This document shows positions 14,534 to 20,126 of a stretch of DNA of 41,077 nt, piece after piece. The stretch is from an uncultured Granulosicoccaceae bacterium (GTDB taxonomy: Bacteria; Pseudomonadota; Gammaproteobacteria; Granulosicoccales; Granulosicoccaceae), in the NCBI GenBank assembly GCA_938003855.1, contig CALKXD010000113.1, forward strand, positions 1 through 41,077, written 5' to 3'. The position numbers were made by a program, and so were the translations under genes. Under the pieces are notes generated by a model that made no database searches, was not told where the DNA came from, and worked only from the letters and a program-made list of their open reading frames with translations. How positions within the stretch are numbered: position 1 is the stretch's first letter; each line of letters opens with the position of its first letter.

Positions 14534-15295
14534 CTACTTTTTTTGCGCCGTCAGGTGCGAAAATGCCGCATAGAGATTGCCGGGCGCACGCTCCTCAACC
14601 AGACTGAGTTTGTCTTCTATATGCTGTAAATGCACCTCCATTGCCTGCTGGGCGGCAGCGACGTCTCCGCTCGCGATGACATCGATGATATCAAAGTGCT
14701 CCTGATGAGCACAGAGCGTGTGGTGTGGTGACTGGTAGGTAGCGATAATGAGCGACGTCTGTGGCACCAGCTCTTGCAGGTATCTCTGCAGTGTGCGGTT
14801 CTGCGACACTCCGGCCAGTTGTATGTGGAAGTCACCACTCAACCTTAAGCCGCTACCCACATGCTGACGTCGCACCTGATCACGCTCGTCTTCAACACAC
14901 TGCCTGAGCGCGGCAATAGAATCTTCAGTGGCAGATAGCGTCGCCTCCCGAATAAGCTCACGTTCAATCAACCGCCGAACCCCGAGCACCTCCCTGGCCG
15001 TGCGGACATCGGGTTGAATGATAGTGGCACCACGATTTGGCTGGATATCGACAATGCGGTCGTGTGAGAGCCTTAGTAAAGCGCGTCGCACGACCGTCCG
15101 GCTGACCGAAAAGATATCTGCCAGCTCATCCTCTTTGAGTTTAGTGCCCGGCATCAGGCGCCGATCGAGGACGGCGTCGAGGATCTCTGTATAGAGATAC
15201 ACATCTTGCGTGGTACTGCCGGTTTCACCCACGGGGATCAACAGCGGACTTGATTTGTTCCCACCGTCACTGTTGTTCAGAGTATTTTCTGCCAT
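14534..15295 (-). CDS. GntR family transcriptional regulator (FCD type), purine operon
   Basis: A 253-residue regulator. The N-terminal winged helix-turn-helix (about residues 30-100) shows LMPGTKLKEDELADIFSVSR followed by VRRALLRLSHDRIVDIQPNRGA. The C-terminal all-helical FCD ligand-binding domain has the R..IE.E.. segment (VRRLIERELI) and the metal-ligand-type histidine in DFHIQLA plus HQEHFDII. The start is ATG at 15295, preceded by AGGAGG 4 bases upstream; a TTG at 15310 overlaps that binding site and is unlikely. It is the last gene of the urate operon, 52 bases after puuD, so it probably autoregulates the operon in response to a purine intermediate. A TGTATACA palindrome upstream of the first gene is a candidate operator. 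Confidence 0.93.
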   Translation of the reverse strand: MAENTLNNSDGGNKSSPLLIPVGETGSTTQDVYLYTEILDAVLDRRLMPGTKLKEDELADIFSVSRTVVRRALLRLSHDRIVDIQPNRGATIIQPDVRTAREVLGVRRLIERELIREATLSATEDSIAALRQCVEDERDQVRRQHVGSGLRLSGDFHIQLAGVSQNRTLQRYLQELVPQTSLIIATYQSPHHTLCAHQEHFDIIDVIASGDVAAAQQAMEVHLQHIEDKLSLVEERAPGNLYAAFSHLTAQKK

Positions 15296-15347
15296 TGTTC
15301 CTCCTGCCAAAATCCACCGGACTCACCACCTGTGTGTCTGTCGTGTG

Positions 15348-16541
15348 CTACTTCAAACTGGAAAACCAGACATCAATGGTGGCTCGTTCTTCATCGGTGA
15401 TGCCGGTCAGATTGCCGATAGGCATCGCTCTGGTCACAACCGATTGCTGATGAATAACCAGTGCCTGACGGGTGATGTCCTGCTCCGACTCGAACACAAT
15501 TCCTTTTGGCGGTGCTTGAAAACCCGGTTGCGACGGCACACTGGCATGACACGAACTGCATCGCTCGGTGACAATCTTGTGTACTGCACTGATATCCGCG
15601 GCACCGATCAGTGTTGAGGATAATTTGTCCGTCTGCTGCGGTGCTACCAGTGTGACAATTCCGGCCAGCACAGCAAACGCCAGAATAAGCGGCACCACAG
15701 ACGCCTGCCCCTTGTGGCGGGCGACAAAATAGATCCGGATAAAAGCCCCCACCAATGTGATTGCCATCAGTATCAGCCAGTTGTACTCATGGCCGTAGGT
15801 CATTGCATAGTGATTGCTTATCATCACAAACAACACGGGCAGCGTGAAATACGTGTTGTGCACTGAGCGCTGCTTACCACGAATACCGTGAATCGGGTCA
15901 GGTTGCCGACCTTCCTCCTTGGCGCGCACCAGATCTTTCTGACCCGGAATGATCACAAAAAAAACATTGCCCACCATTATGGTACCGAGCATGGCACCGA
16001 AGTGCATGTAGGCGCCCCTGCCACTGAACACCTGACACAAAGCGAACGCCAGAATCGTCAACACCACCAGTAAAATTAACGCCATTAGGTTTTCGCGTTT
16101 GCCGACAGCGCTTTCACACAACCAGTTATAGGCAATCCACCCGATAGCAATTACCGCCACACCAATAGCGATAGCCATTGGTTTCGACAGTTCAGCTACC
16201 CCTGGGTCAATCAGGTAGATTTCAGCGCCGTACCAATACATCAGCGCCAGCATGAACATGCCGGTAATCCAGGTGGTATAGGCTTCCCATTTAAACCAGT
16301 GCAAATGCTCTGGCATCTGCTCGGGCGCCAGCTGATATTTTTGCGCATGGTACATACCACCGCCGTGTACTGACCAGACCTCGCCGGATACTCCCTTGTC
16401 ACGATCGGCTTCAGATTTCGGTGGCTCGAGTGAATTGTCCAGCCAGATAAAATAGAATGACGCACCAATCCACGCTATACCGGTGATCATGTGCACCCAG
16501 CGGCCCAATAAATTTACCCAGTCGAGCAGGTAGGCGGCCAT
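15348..16541 (-). CDS. puuD: membrane urate hydroxylase PuuD with C-terminal cytochrome c domain
   Basis: Oxidises urate to 5-hydroxyisourate at the inner membrane and passes electrons to a fused c-type haem rather than to oxygen. The first 300 residues are a polytopic membrane domain starting MAAYLLDWVNLLGRWVHMIT, with GIAWIGASFYFIWLDNSL and GNVFFVIIPGQK, characteristic of PuuD. The C-terminal domain carries CSSCH (about residues 326-330) and a probable axial Met in RAMPIGN. The total is 397 residues, normal for the family. The ATG at 16541, one base after the uraH stop with GGGGGAG upstream, is chosen; the longer open frame to 16808 is only read-through into uraH in another frame. This is the energy-conserving alternative to soluble uricase. 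Confidence 0.95.
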   Translation of the reverse strand: MAAYLLDWVNLLGRWVHMITGIAWIGASFYFIWLDNSLEPPKSEADRDKGVSGEVWSVHGGGMYHAQKYQLAPEQMPEHLHWFKWEAYTTWITGMFMLALMYWYGAEIYLIDPGVAELSKPMAIAIGVAVIAIGWIAYNWLCESAVGKRENLMALILLVVLTILAFALCQVFSGRGAYMHFGAMLGTIMVGNVFFVIIPGQKDLVRAKEEGRQPDPIHGIRGKQRSVHNTYFTLPVLFVMISNHYAMTYGHEYNWLILMAITLVGAFIRIYFVARHKGQASVVPLILAFAVLAGIVTLVAPQQTDKLSSTLIGAADISAVHKIVTERCSSCHASVPSQPGFQAPPKGIVFESEQDITRQALVIHQQSVVTRAMPIGNLTGITDEERATIDVWFSSLK

Positions 16542-16542
16542 G

Positions 16543-16890
16543 TCAGCTCCCCCGGTACGTGCTGTAGCTATAGGGCGATACCAGTAACGGCACGTGGTAA
16601 TGTGATGTGGGATCGCTGATGCCAAAACGCAGCACGACACAATCGAGAAACGGATAATCAGAGCGATTGCCTGCACCGAAGTAGCGCCCGGCCTCGAACT
16701 CAAGTTCATAGGCACCGGCACGCATTTGCTCACCCGACAGCAGCGGCTCATCACAGCGTCCGTCATCGTTGGTTTTTGTTTCAAGCAGCAGTTCGCGGTC
16801 GCCGCCATCTACCCGGCTTAATCGGATAGTCATTTCTTTTGCCGGAACACCTCTAGCTGTGTCCAGTACGTGAGTCGTTAATTTGGTCAT
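16543..16890 (-). CDS. uraH: 5-hydroxyisourate hydrolase (transthyretin-like)
   Basis: A 115-residue cytoplasmic enzyme that hydrolyses 5-hydroxyisourate to OHCU. The N-terminal LTTHVLDTARGVPA holds the first active-site His, NDDGRC the Arg, and SHYHVPLLVSPYSYSTYRGS the second His region and the diagnostic YRGS C-terminus. The length is standard and no periplasmic signal is present. It is directly upstream of puuD (1-base gap), so substrate production and hydrolysis are coupled. The next enzyme, OHCU decarboxylase, is not found in the window. Confidence 0.96.
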   Translation of the reverse strand: MTKLTTHVLDTARGVPAKEMTIRLSRVDGGDRELLLETKTNDDGRCDEPLLSGEQMRAGAYELEFEAGRYFGAGNRSDYPFLDCVVLRFGISDPTSHYHVPLLVSPYSYSTYRGS

Positions 16891-16929: not shown

Positions 16930-17760
16930 CTAGAAGCGGGACGGGAATGTCATGTGACGATTGACATCTTTGTACAACAGATAGCGGAATGTGCCATCGC
17001 CACCTGCGTAACAGGCTTGCGGGCAATAGGCACGCAACCACATGTAATCGCCGGCTTCGACTTCGACCCAGTCCTGGTTCAGATTATAAATGCCTTTACC
17101 CTCCAGCACATACAATCCGTGCTCCATCACATGGGTTTCCAGAAACGGGATAACACAGCCTGGCTCGAAGCTGACAATCGTAATATGCATATCGTGGCGC
17201 AGATCGGTTTTGTCGACAAAGCGTTTGGTTGACCAGCCGTTATTACTGCCGGGCATGACATAGGCTTCTATGTCGCTTTCCTGTACCACAATCACGTCTG
17301 GTTCATCGAGCCCCTTGACGTACTGATAGGGTTTGCGAAACCAGTGAAAGGTTGCCTGATCCGGACCGGTATTAAAAAGCGTCCAGTCAGCGCCAGGCGG
17401 CAGGTATACATAACTACCACACTCAAGTACGTTTTTTTCACCGTTTACTGTCAGGGTCAGGGAACCGGCTGTTACAAACAATGTCGATTGCACGCCGTCT
17501 TCAGTTTCCGGGGTGCCGCTGCCGCCGCCCGTTTCGATCTCGACCAGATAATGCGAAAAAGTGGCACAGAATCCTGCGATGGGCGACGCCAGAATCCAGA
17601 GACGCGTATCGTCCCAGAACGGCAGACGACTGTTAACAATATCAGTCATTGAACCGCGTGGTATAACGGTGTATGCGTCTTTAACAACTGCTCTGCTGTC
17701 AAGCAGGGTTCTCTGCGCAGGTACATCACCCGGTCTCACCGGTAGTCGTTTCGGATTCAT
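16930..17760 (-). CDS. allE: (S)-ureidoglycine aminohydrolase
   Basis: A 276-residue bicupin that converts (S)-ureidoglycine to (S)-ureidoglycolate and ammonia with Mn2+. Two cupin modules are visible. The N-terminal one includes TLFVTAGSLTLTVNG and GSYVYLPPGADWTLFN; the C-terminal metal-binding one includes FLETHVMEHGLYVLEGKGIY and a late QACYAGG segment. These match the AllE/UGlyAH family closely. The ATG at 17760 is chosen; no strong binding site is evident. It lies 27 bases after allA and 39 before uraH. Its presence implies that allantoate is degraded through the amidohydrolase route, whose first enzyme must be encoded elsewhere. Confidence 0.93.
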   Translation of the reverse strand: MNPKRLPVRPGDVPAQRTLLDSRAVVKDAYTVIPRGSMTDIVNSRLPFWDDTRLWILASPIAGFCATFSHYLVEIETGGGSGTPETEDGVQSTLFVTAGSLTLTVNGEKNVLECGSYVYLPPGADWTLFNTGPDQATFHWFRKPYQYVKGLDEPDVIVVQESDIEAYVMPGSNNGWSTKRFVDKTDLRHDMHITIVSFEPGCVIPFLETHVMEHGLYVLEGKGIYNLNQDWVEVEAGDYMWLRAYCPQACYAGGDGTFRYLLYKDVNRHMTFPSRF

Positions 17761-17787: not shown

Positions 17788-18291
17788 TCAGCGGCTTATG
17801 ACGGCGCTGAAGTCAATAATGAAAGGGTTGTCAAAGTGACATTCATCGAGGTTGTCACCCTCACCAATATAGTCCACTACAACAAATAAACTGCGCTTGA
17901 CGACAGGTGTCAACACGCCGTGCCAGGTATTGCGATGATAGTTAACCCCCTGATAACCGCTGGTAACAAACACGACGGGGTTGACGGCAATACCATCACT
18001 GTCTGCGGCCACCACAATGAGATAAGGATCCGTTGATGTCGGGAAAAAGGCCTGCGACCCCAGCGGGTGACGTTCGACATAGCGCAACGTCAGCGGATCT
18101 GCGTAGGGCTTTGCATCAAACAGACTGACCCCGGCCTTACCGGAACGGTCTATGTCCAGCGATACCAGGTCACTGAAGCGTTGACAATTGCCATTGTTTA
18201 TCGCGATCGGCTGATGACCGGATGTCTCCAATACTTCGCCGTAAGCGCTGAAAGCGTCAGGCGTCAGGGGACGAGGAGTCAGGTTGTTCAT
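17788..18291 (-). CDS. allA: ureidoglycolate lyase
   Basis: A 167-residue enzyme splitting (S)-ureidoglycolate to glyoxylate and urea. Family segments are LTPDAFSAYGEVLE at the N-terminus, RHPLGSQAFFPTSTDPYLIV in the middle, and GVNYHRNTWHGVLTPV with the active-site histidines, then FVVVDYIGEGDNLDEC. The length is typical of AllA. It follows the permease gene by 71 bases and precedes allE. It completes the last two steps of ureide degradation in this operon. Confidence 0.95.
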   Translation of the reverse strand: MNNLTPRPLTPDAFSAYGEVLETSGHQPIAINNGNCQRFSDLVSLDIDRSGKAGVSLFDAKPYADPLTLRYVERHPLGSQAFFPTSTDPYLIVVAADSDGIAVNPVVFVTSGYQGVNYHRNTWHGVLTPVVKRSLFVVVDYIGEGDNLDECHFDNPFIIDFSAVISR

Positions 18292-18362
18292 AGAGTGCGT
18301 TTTATTAGACGGGTTTGTCGCCGCACAACAAGCGTGCAGCGACAGAGCAACGTGATGACCGG

Positions 18363-20126
18363 CTATCGGTTTTCGTCACTGGGATCACGATAATCGCGTG
18401 GTTCGTAGTCAGTGCGATCACCATAACTCGGCCGATGCCTGCGCCCCGGCTCGTCGCTGTATCGGGGCCTGTCGTCATAGCGAGGCCGGTCTGCGCGGCG
18501 GGGCTCATCGCGGTAGCGCGGACGGTCATCGTAATCAGGCTCATCATAGCTTGGCTCATCTCGATATACCGGTGCATCGTCATAGCGCGGTTCTTCACGG
18601 TATCGAGGTGCGTCGTCATATTGCGGAGTATTGTCACGGCGTGGTGTGGCATAGTCCGCGCGCGGGTCATCTCTGTAACGAACGCGGCCATAGGTCTCGC
18701 GCTCCTGATTTTCTGGCTGTTCACTGGCGCGCTCATAGCCGTAGCGATCATCACCACCGCTGTCATCACCATCATCTTCATCATCTGGAATGATTGCATT
18801 CAACAGCATCGCAATTGCCGCAGCCGGCAACAAGCCGGATGTCATCAGAACCTTCAGGGTGTCCGGCAGATGCTGTAATGCACCCGGCTCCAGTTGCAAA
18901 CCCAGACCAATAGACAGAGCCACCGCAAAAATCATCATGTTGCGTCGAGTCCAGTTAACGTCAGAGAGCATATTGACGCCGGCCGCTGCCACCATACCAA
19001 ACATCACGATTACGCCACCGCCAAGTACCGCAATCGGCATGGTGGAAATCGCTGCACCGAATTTCGGCACCAGACCGGCCGCAACCAGAAAGATTGCACC
19101 GAGAGTCACAACGTGACGACTCATGACACCGGTCATTGAGATCAGGCCGACGTTCTGGCTGAACGATGTGTTTGGCAGTGCGCCGAAAGCGCCCGACAGT
19201 GCGGTGCCGACACCATCGGCCATCGTGCCACCGGCGACTTCTTTGTCGGTCGCTTCACGGCCGGCGCCGCCCTTGGTGATACCGGAAATGTCACCGACAG
19301 TTTCAATAGCAGACACAATACCCATCAGACACATCGCGATGACGGCGGCCGCATTGACCTCGAACCCGAAGTGCAGCGGATTGGGGGCGGAGAACCACGA
19401 TGCTTTTTCGACATTGGCAAAGTTGATCAGCTCAGCGATACCCAGCGAATCCAGACCGTACGCGACTACGTAACCCGCCAGCAAACCAAGTAGTACCGCC
19501 GACACCGAGAGCATTCCTTTGGTGAAAAACTTAAGCCCCAGAGTGACGACAATAACCACCATCGCCAGGCCCCACTGCAACAACGACCCATAACCGGGCT
19601 TGCCGATCATCGGCACACCACCGGCCGCATACTGTATACCCACCTTAACCAGCGCGAGACCGATCATCAGTACCACCAGTCCGGTGACCAGCGGTGGCAA
19701 CCAGTGTCTTATCCGGCCAATGATAGTGCCTAGAAAAAAATGAAATATGCCTCCGAGTACAATGCCACCCATCAGGGCGGCCATGCCGAAGGTTTTGGCA
19801 ATCGGTATCATTACCGGAATAAACGCAAAGCTTGTTCCCTGCACCACTGGCAATCTGGCGCCAATCGGTCCGATAGATATGGTTTGTATTAATGTGGCAA
19901 TGCCCGCAAACACCATTGACATCTGAATCATGTAGATCATGTCGCTGATGTCACCCGATCCAAAGCCGAAACCGGCAGCACCTGCAATAATTATAGCGGG
20001 GGTCACATTGCTGACAAACATTGCCAGCACATGCTGTATACCCAACGGGATTCCCTTGCCTAAGCCGGGAAAATAGTTGGGATCACGCATTTGCTCAGGC
20101 GTCATTCCCGCGATGGTCTTGGCCAT
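18363..20126 (-). CDS. NCS2 family nucleobase (urate/xanthine) permease with long Arg/Tyr/Asp/Pro-rich tail
   Basis: Inner-membrane symporter importing a purine base, probably urate given the operon. Residues 1-445 form the usual NCS2/NAT core with about 14 hydrophobic segments and the signature SFSQNVGLISMTG (QNxGxxxxT). The ATG at 20126 has GGAGAGGA upstream. Residues 446-587 are an unusual extension: an acidic linker (IPDDEDDGDDSGG), then about 20 imperfect repeats of about six residues such as RYRDEP, RYDDAP and SYDEP. By hand count it has 29 Arg, 17 Tyr and no Lys. Family members usually end within a few tens of residues of the last helix. The tail should be cytoplasmic and disordered. 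This is the first gene of the operon. Confidence 0.94.
   Translation of the reverse strand: MAKTIAGMTPEQMRDPNYFPGLGKGIPLGIQHVLAMFVSNVTPAIIIAGAAGFGFGSGDISDMIYMIQMSMVFAGIATLIQTISIGPIGARLPVVQGTSFAFIPVMIPIAKTFGMAALMGGIVLGGIFHFFLGTIIGRIRHWLPPLVTGLVVLMIGLALVKVGIQYAAGGVPMIGKPGYGSLLQWGLAMVVIVVTLGLKFFTKGMLSVSAVLLGLLAGYVVAYGLDSLGIAELINFANVEKASWFSAPNPLHFGFEVNAAAVIAMCLMGIVSAIETVGDISGITKGGAGREATDKEVAGGTMADGVGTALSGAFGALPNTSFSQNVGLISMTGVMSRHVVTLGAIFLVAAGLVPKFGAAISTMPIAVLGGGVIVMFGMVAAAGVNMLSDVNWTRRNMMIFAVALSIGLGLQLEPGALQHLPDTLKVLMTSGLLPAAAIAMLLNAIIPDDEDDGDDSGGDDRYGYERASEQPENQERETYGRVRYRDDPRADYATPRRDNTPQYDDAPRYREEPRYDDAPVYRDEPSYDEPDYDDRPRYRDEPRRADRPRYDDRPRYSDEPGRRHRPSYGDRTDYEPRDYRDPSDENR

Follow-up and report, generated by a model that had tools for sequence, protein, structure and literature searches.

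The 41,077-nt contig CALKXD010000113.1 of an uncultured Granulosicoccaceae bacterium, the whole of which is referred to here as the window, encodes on its minus strand a purine permease of the NCS2 (nucleobase:cation symporter-2) family, followed by a row of urate-degradation genes (Table 1). The source is a 6.8-Mb draft genome, and the related records used for comparison are metagenome-assembled Granulosicoccaceae of the Gammaproteobacteria, all of the assemblies being drafts. Beyond its membrane core, the permease carries a long tail rich in Arg, Tyr, Asp and Pro. This tail is a genus-specific, selectively maintained, predicted-disordered C-terminal extension of a purine importer, selection being read from sequence comparison.

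The permease does belong to the NCS2 family, as an earlier note made from the letters of the window had proposed. It matched PF00860 with an E value of 5.9e-83 (279 bits, against a Pfam cut-off of 27) and the xanthine permease profile TIGR03173 (pbuX) with an E value of 1.4e-125 (419.3 bits, against a cut-off of 414.15), the latter match reaching residue 446. Taken together, the Pfam and NCBIfam family profiles cover residues 25 to 446. In the AlphaFold model, built on a 72-sequence alignment (mean predicted local distance difference test [pLDDT] score of 80, compared to only 35 for a nine-sequence version), the core showed pLDDT values mostly between 85 and 98 and ended in a helix formed by residues 432 to 445. 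Its best PDB matches in Foldseek were Aspergillus UapA, mammalian SVCT1 and Escherichia coli UraA (NCS2/NAT, SLC23), in accordance with a UraA-type fold and with membership in the same core family. The transported substrate is probably urate or xanthine, a specificity deduced only from the adjoining urate genes.

The tail codons share one open frame with the ATG of the permease. The earlier note had placed the tail and counted its residues exactly (142 residues, with 29 Arg, 17 Tyr and no Lys), and it had described about 20 degenerate hexads. The repeat is real, with units such as RYRDEP, RYDDAP and RYDDRP, but that number was generous: a strict Y-[DER]-[DE]-x-P rule is satisfied by 8 to 9 units of the window tail, the remaining ones being degenerate. 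Two Tyr residues were spaced six positions apart 7 times in the window tail, compared to 1.8 times when that tail was shuffled (P = 3e-4). Over nine homologous tails, this spacing occurred 51 times, against 10.9 times in shuffled versions (maximum of 22 in 1,000 shuffles). Thus, residue order carries more than composition. Arg, Tyr, Asp and Pro made up 75% of the best 100 residues of the tail, compared to 37% in the next-best open frame of the window. The first 30 residues had a net charge of -11 in the window copy, with a similar trend in the homologues (-3 to -7), and the tail end was RPRDPRGPRR or similar in most species, the window copy having diverged (PRDYRDPSDENR). In agreement with the disordered character suggested in the earlier note, residues 459 to 587 showed pLDDT values below 50 and no secondary structure, with a sharp boundary between order and disorder at the last helix. 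Further long open frames overlap the tail (18305-18799 on the minus strand; 18315-18878 and 18398-18793 on the plus strand); these seem to be side effects of the codon repetition, and there is no support for any of them as a gene.

Table 1. Features of the tailed permease, its neighbourhood and the two mosaic homologues. Coordinates are those of the window unless a locus is named.
Feature	Coordinates	Strand	Details
NCS2 purine permease	18363..20126	minus	587 aa; ATG start at 20126; TAG stop at 18363-18365
Membrane core, residues 1-445	18792..20126	minus	NCS2/UraA-type fold (AlphaFold and Foldseek)
C-terminal disordered tail, residues 446-587	18366..18791	minus	142 codons; R29 Y17 D31 E14 P18 K0
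Acidic juxtamembrane spacer, about residues 446-481	18684..18791	minus	Defined by charge and few Tyr/Arg
Hexad repeat region, about residues 482-570	18417..18683	minus	Consensus P-R-Y-[DE]-D-R, from Tyr-centred preferences in nine tails
C-terminal end, about residues 571-587	18366..18416	minus	Aligns with '..RPRDPRGPRR' of most congeners
Hairpin between permease and allA	18316..18344	minus	Just past the permease stop; found by folding the next 75 nt
Ureidoglycolate lyase (allA)	17788..18291	minus	PF04115; downstream of permease, same strand
(S)-Ureidoglycine aminohydrolase	16930..17760	minus	NF008376 and TIGR03214 over cut-off; downstream, same strand
5-Hydroxyisourate hydrolase	16543..16890	minus	TIGR02962, PF00576; downstream, same strand
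PuuD-type membrane urate oxidase	15348..16541	minus	PF06181, E 1.6e-131; probable start MAAYLLDW
GntR/FCD regulator	14534..15310	minus	PF00392, PF07729; end of gene row
Mosaic permease genes	L154 2532-4265 (G008); L155 9126-10835 (G007)		Similar 5' part and tail end, strongly different middle

Within the genus, the permease was found in 10 of 14 genomes, being absent from G002, G004, G005 and G010. Nine of the ten permeases carried the tail, at lengths of 115 to 142 aa and in the same frame throughout, so it is not missing from close homologues; the permeases of these nine species are 67 to 84% identical to that of the window. The sole congener permease without a tail, locus L017 of G011, lies on a long branch of the core tree with no urate genes nearby, and it could be another paralogue or have been acquired by transfer. 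By contrast, 87 tail-less relatives, with cores 60 to 84% identical to that of the window, have only 4 to 36 residues past the core end, which makes the tail as unusual for the family as the earlier note had supposed. These relatives comprise 11 further family copies (including that of G011) and 76 others (L032-L107), mostly from Rhodobacterales and other Alphaproteobacteria. In the sister Granulosicoccaceae genus and in Alphaproteobacteria, the permeases likewise have an acidic stretch past the last helix, and their few residues beyond the core often read '..EELADESTEEVSGGMAGHG..', but they lack the repeat. Several distant bacterial NCS2 proteins (L207, L208, L211-L217) also have long C-terminal extensions, of 130 to 156 residues, which, unlike the window tail, look folded and lack the R/Y/D/P repeat; that of L207 gave a weak HATPase_c_2 (RsbW-like) match below the cut-off. 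Across 369 genomes of the class, inspection of long-framed NCS2 proteins revealed no such tail, and only ordinary NCS2 relatives appeared among the matches listed from a plasmid collection.

By pattern search, the repeat is also confined to this one protein. The DNA pattern encoding Y[DE][DE]xPxYx[DE] gave 4 matches in the window genome, all of them within the permease tail, and in seven other tailed genomes the matches were likewise restricted to the tail. The ninth, G006, gave 0 matches with this pattern and 1, in the tail, with a looser one. Among the 40 genomes of the family, the remaining ones gave a single stray match. This confinement means that association among tails, if any, would be homotypic. 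The possibility of a tail module common to other proteins was rejected as far as the searches reached, given that tail and repeat-pattern searches yielded only the permease beyond chance; matches of the tail to CoA-transferases were chance, and similar repeats across the 369 class genomes sit in unrelated frames, none of them NCS2.

As regards origin, repeat units within one tail are 62 to 83% identical in amino acids, a figure inflated by the choice of units through the Y..P rule. Positions with the same residue in two units of the window tail used the same codon with a frequency of 0.35, compared to 0.39 expected from codon usage; agreement was near expectation in the other tails, the largest excess being that of L009 (0.65 versus 0.56, 23 comparisons). 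Tandem Repeats Finder detected no 18-base tandem repeat in the tail DNA. A recent DNA duplication was rejected as the source of the repeat on account of the chance-level codon agreement and the absence of a tandem repeat. A frameshift, which the earlier note had named as a possible maker of the tail, was also rejected, the same frame being open in nine species. Since the units are alike as protein while their synonymous codons agree at chance, selection operates on the protein; the repeat, old at the DNA level, is maintained at the protein level.

These data bear on the possibility that the tail is neutral, a functionless extension past a lost stop codon that grew by repeat slippage. Its restriction to one genus, its variable sequence and length and the tail-less permease of G011 would be in agreement with such an origin. 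However, an open frame and a constant composition have been kept in nine species despite the divergence of their permeases, and the Tyr periodicity persists despite randomised codons between units. Moreover, when the ends of the G007 and G008 tails were compared, nonsynonymous-codon changes (7 in 101 sites) were rarer per site than synonymous ones (9 in 34 sites). A neutral tail is, thus, highly improbable. For its part, the anatomy described above, a disordered, genus-specific C-terminal extension of an NCS2 importer, is almost certainly correct.

The nine tails are very hydrophilic (grand average of hydropathy of -2.1 to -2.6), with a fraction of charged residues of 0.47 to 0.54, a net charge per residue of -0.05 to -0.13 and isoelectric points of 4.4 to 5.3. 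Pooled (1,172 residues), they contain 241 Arg but 3 Lys, and 118 Tyr but 3 Phe and no Trp. The earlier note had considered RNA binding at the membrane, and Arg/Tyr-rich repeats do superficially resemble RNA-binding disordered regions. Nevertheless, regions of the RGG type have a net positive charge or acid-free Arg patches, neither of which was seen in the nine tails: all of them are acidic, no homologue is net basic, and Arg is interleaved with Asp and Glu. RNA binding is therefore scarcely credible.

The tail combines predicted disorder, low complexity and regular Arg/Tyr repeats, and Arg-Tyr pairs recurring at regular intervals could plausibly be adhesive, as in sticker-and-spacer proteins. 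Such pairs favour a loose clustering of the permease, a possibility also raised in the earlier note, and we tentatively prefer, at somewhat less than even chances, a reading in which the disordered tails serve as multivalent tethers, holding permease dimers in loose clusters close to the site of cytosolic urate oxidation. By homology with UraA, both termini of which are cytoplasmic and whose function needs dimerisation (PMC5539350), each protomer of a permease dimer would extend its tail into the cytoplasm. The regularly spaced Arg-Tyr-Asp hexads would then offer many weak adhesive sites, through Arg-Tyr cation-pi contacts and Arg-Asp salt bridges, and tails of neighbouring permeases could associate into loose membrane clusters. 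At such clusters, incoming urate would have PuuD and the soluble enzymes close by on that face of the membrane. For PuuD, a cytosolic site of urate oxidation is predicted, and Urah and Urad are cytosolic (PMC4562309).

Two observations weigh against this proposal. Charge segregation in the tails is at or below that of shuffles (z of -0.6 to -2.9), and such evenly mixed polyampholytes tend to form expanded coils with weak self-attraction. In addition, the sister genus has the same urate pathway alongside tail-less permeases, so clustering is dispensable for it. The even mixing of charges weakens clustering and favours the main rival, an entropic brush or spacer. In this view, the tail would be an expanded polyampholyte, neither sticky nor bound to a specific partner, and it would clear the permease surface, tune crowding or lateral spacing, or aid expression or stability. 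A high fraction of well-mixed charges, the marked hydrophilicity and a sequence free to vary in detail and length at constant composition are all as expected of a brush. A brush, however, needs neither a Tyr about every six residues nor Arg in preference to Lys, both of which were kept in 9 of 9 species, and the tail occurs in just one protein of the genome. We consider the brush a serious but somewhat unlikely explanation.

Clustering of a bacterial transporter has a precedent in Rv1747 of Mycobacterium tuberculosis, an ABC transporter whose disordered cytoplasmic region clusters by phase separation (PMC8573418, PMC11326607). Rv1747 differs in belonging to another transporter family and in the setting of its disordered stretch, which is flanked by phosphothreonine-binding domains and regulated through phosphorylation; the likeness is a functional analogy only, with no sequence link. 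If the tail does cluster the carrier, the window would encode a bacterial secondary transporter whose arrangement depends on a disordered tail. At about 80% core identity, permeases with and without the tail constitute a natural experiment for clustering, uptake and enzyme association.

Within the NCS2/NAT family, several prokaryotic proteins have practically no termini or extremely short ones, while C-terminal tails measure 28 to 91 residues in slime moulds and protists and 15 to 70 in fungi, where they direct turnover (PMC6597760); the window tail, in comparison, is 142 residues of hexad repeat. Like that of UraA, the C terminus of the window permease would be expected to be cytoplasmic. The control of sorting and turnover by the fungal tails raises the possibility that the tail regulates the permease itself, by autoinhibition, gating or turnover. 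Against it, deletion of the C-terminal region of UapA leaves transport activity and kinetics unchanged (PMC6597760), and the fungal role operates via ubiquitination of Lys, a residue that the window tail does not contain, making self-regulation very unlikely. No match for NCS2 proteins with disordered tails was obtained in the collection of papers searched. The window permease thus represents a known family with an unusual lineage-specific tail, whose proposed role is a hypothesis.

In six tailed genomes, the window included, the permease lies directly upstream of allA and the aminohydrolase gene on the same strand, and the hydrolase and PuuD genes were seen to follow in 5 of the 6. The open frame of puuD begins at 16808 in the window, the start given in Table 1 being deduced from homologous proteins and from its position next to the hydrolase stop. 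PuuD is 77 to 86% identical within the genus. This gene order is what could be expected if the tail were a docking arm for partners (PuuD loops, AllA, the aminohydrolase or the hydrolase) forming a transport metabolon, akin to the tethering of urate enzymes that the earlier note had raised. In the same direction, a full aminohydrolase was present in 8 of 9 tailed genomes and in 0 of 5 other congeners, and the tailed genomes all grouped in a single clade in the trees of the aminohydrolase (99/98) and of allA (96/94). This co-occurrence, however, follows from shared ancestry. Furthermore, G003 and G008 have the tailed permease on other contigs than the urate genes (that of G003 comes after putative uraD- and puuE-type genes, read from translations), the tail-less sister genus keeps the same enzymes, and the drift of the tail sequence suggests no precise interface. 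Docking is accordingly unlikely. A stronger proposal, in which the multivalent tail that the permease alone in its genome possesses would gather permease dimers, together with urate-degrading enzymes, into a condensed compartment for purine uptake anchored at the membrane, appears less likely still. PuuD occurred in nearly all family genomes, with or without a tailed permease, and the urate pathway can thus do without the tail.

In the permease-core tree, the tailed proteins formed two clades, one of them near the tail-less copies of the sister genus. A single tailed clade was not rejected by the approximately unbiased test (p-AU of 0.25), and two origins of the tail are therefore not claimed. 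In the PuuD tree, the tail-less G011 grouped with the tailed genomes. With the tailed genomes united in the aminohydrolase and allA trees, tail presence follows the ancestry of the urate operon, whereas the permease core looks mosaic. The latter is exemplified by G007 and G008, which have a common MttB-type gene (PF06253) upstream of the permease. Their permease genes are 81% identical over 335 bp at the start and 89.6% identical over the last 135 bp of the tail (the G007 contig stops two bases past the last tail codon, leaving the stop codon outside view), and the core between is about 70% identical (583 bp) or too diverged for alignment. The mosaic probably arose by recombination, which suggests that the core was exchanged and the tail retained; a tail kept beside a mosaic core suggests, in turn, that the two are modules that can evolve separately.

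A hairpin follows the permease stop in the window (stem TGTCGCTGCAC/GTGCGGCGACA), with no match in Rfam, and it may set the relative expression of the permease and the enzymes. A strong hairpin was observed behind the stop in most tailed genomes (L003, L004, L006, L007, L009 and L016), before allA where this gene comes next, with stems resembling GTCGCTGCAC/GTGCRGCGAC in one set and CACTGYGCC/GGCGCAGTG in another. Certain tail-less relatives have unrelated hairpins after the permease stop.
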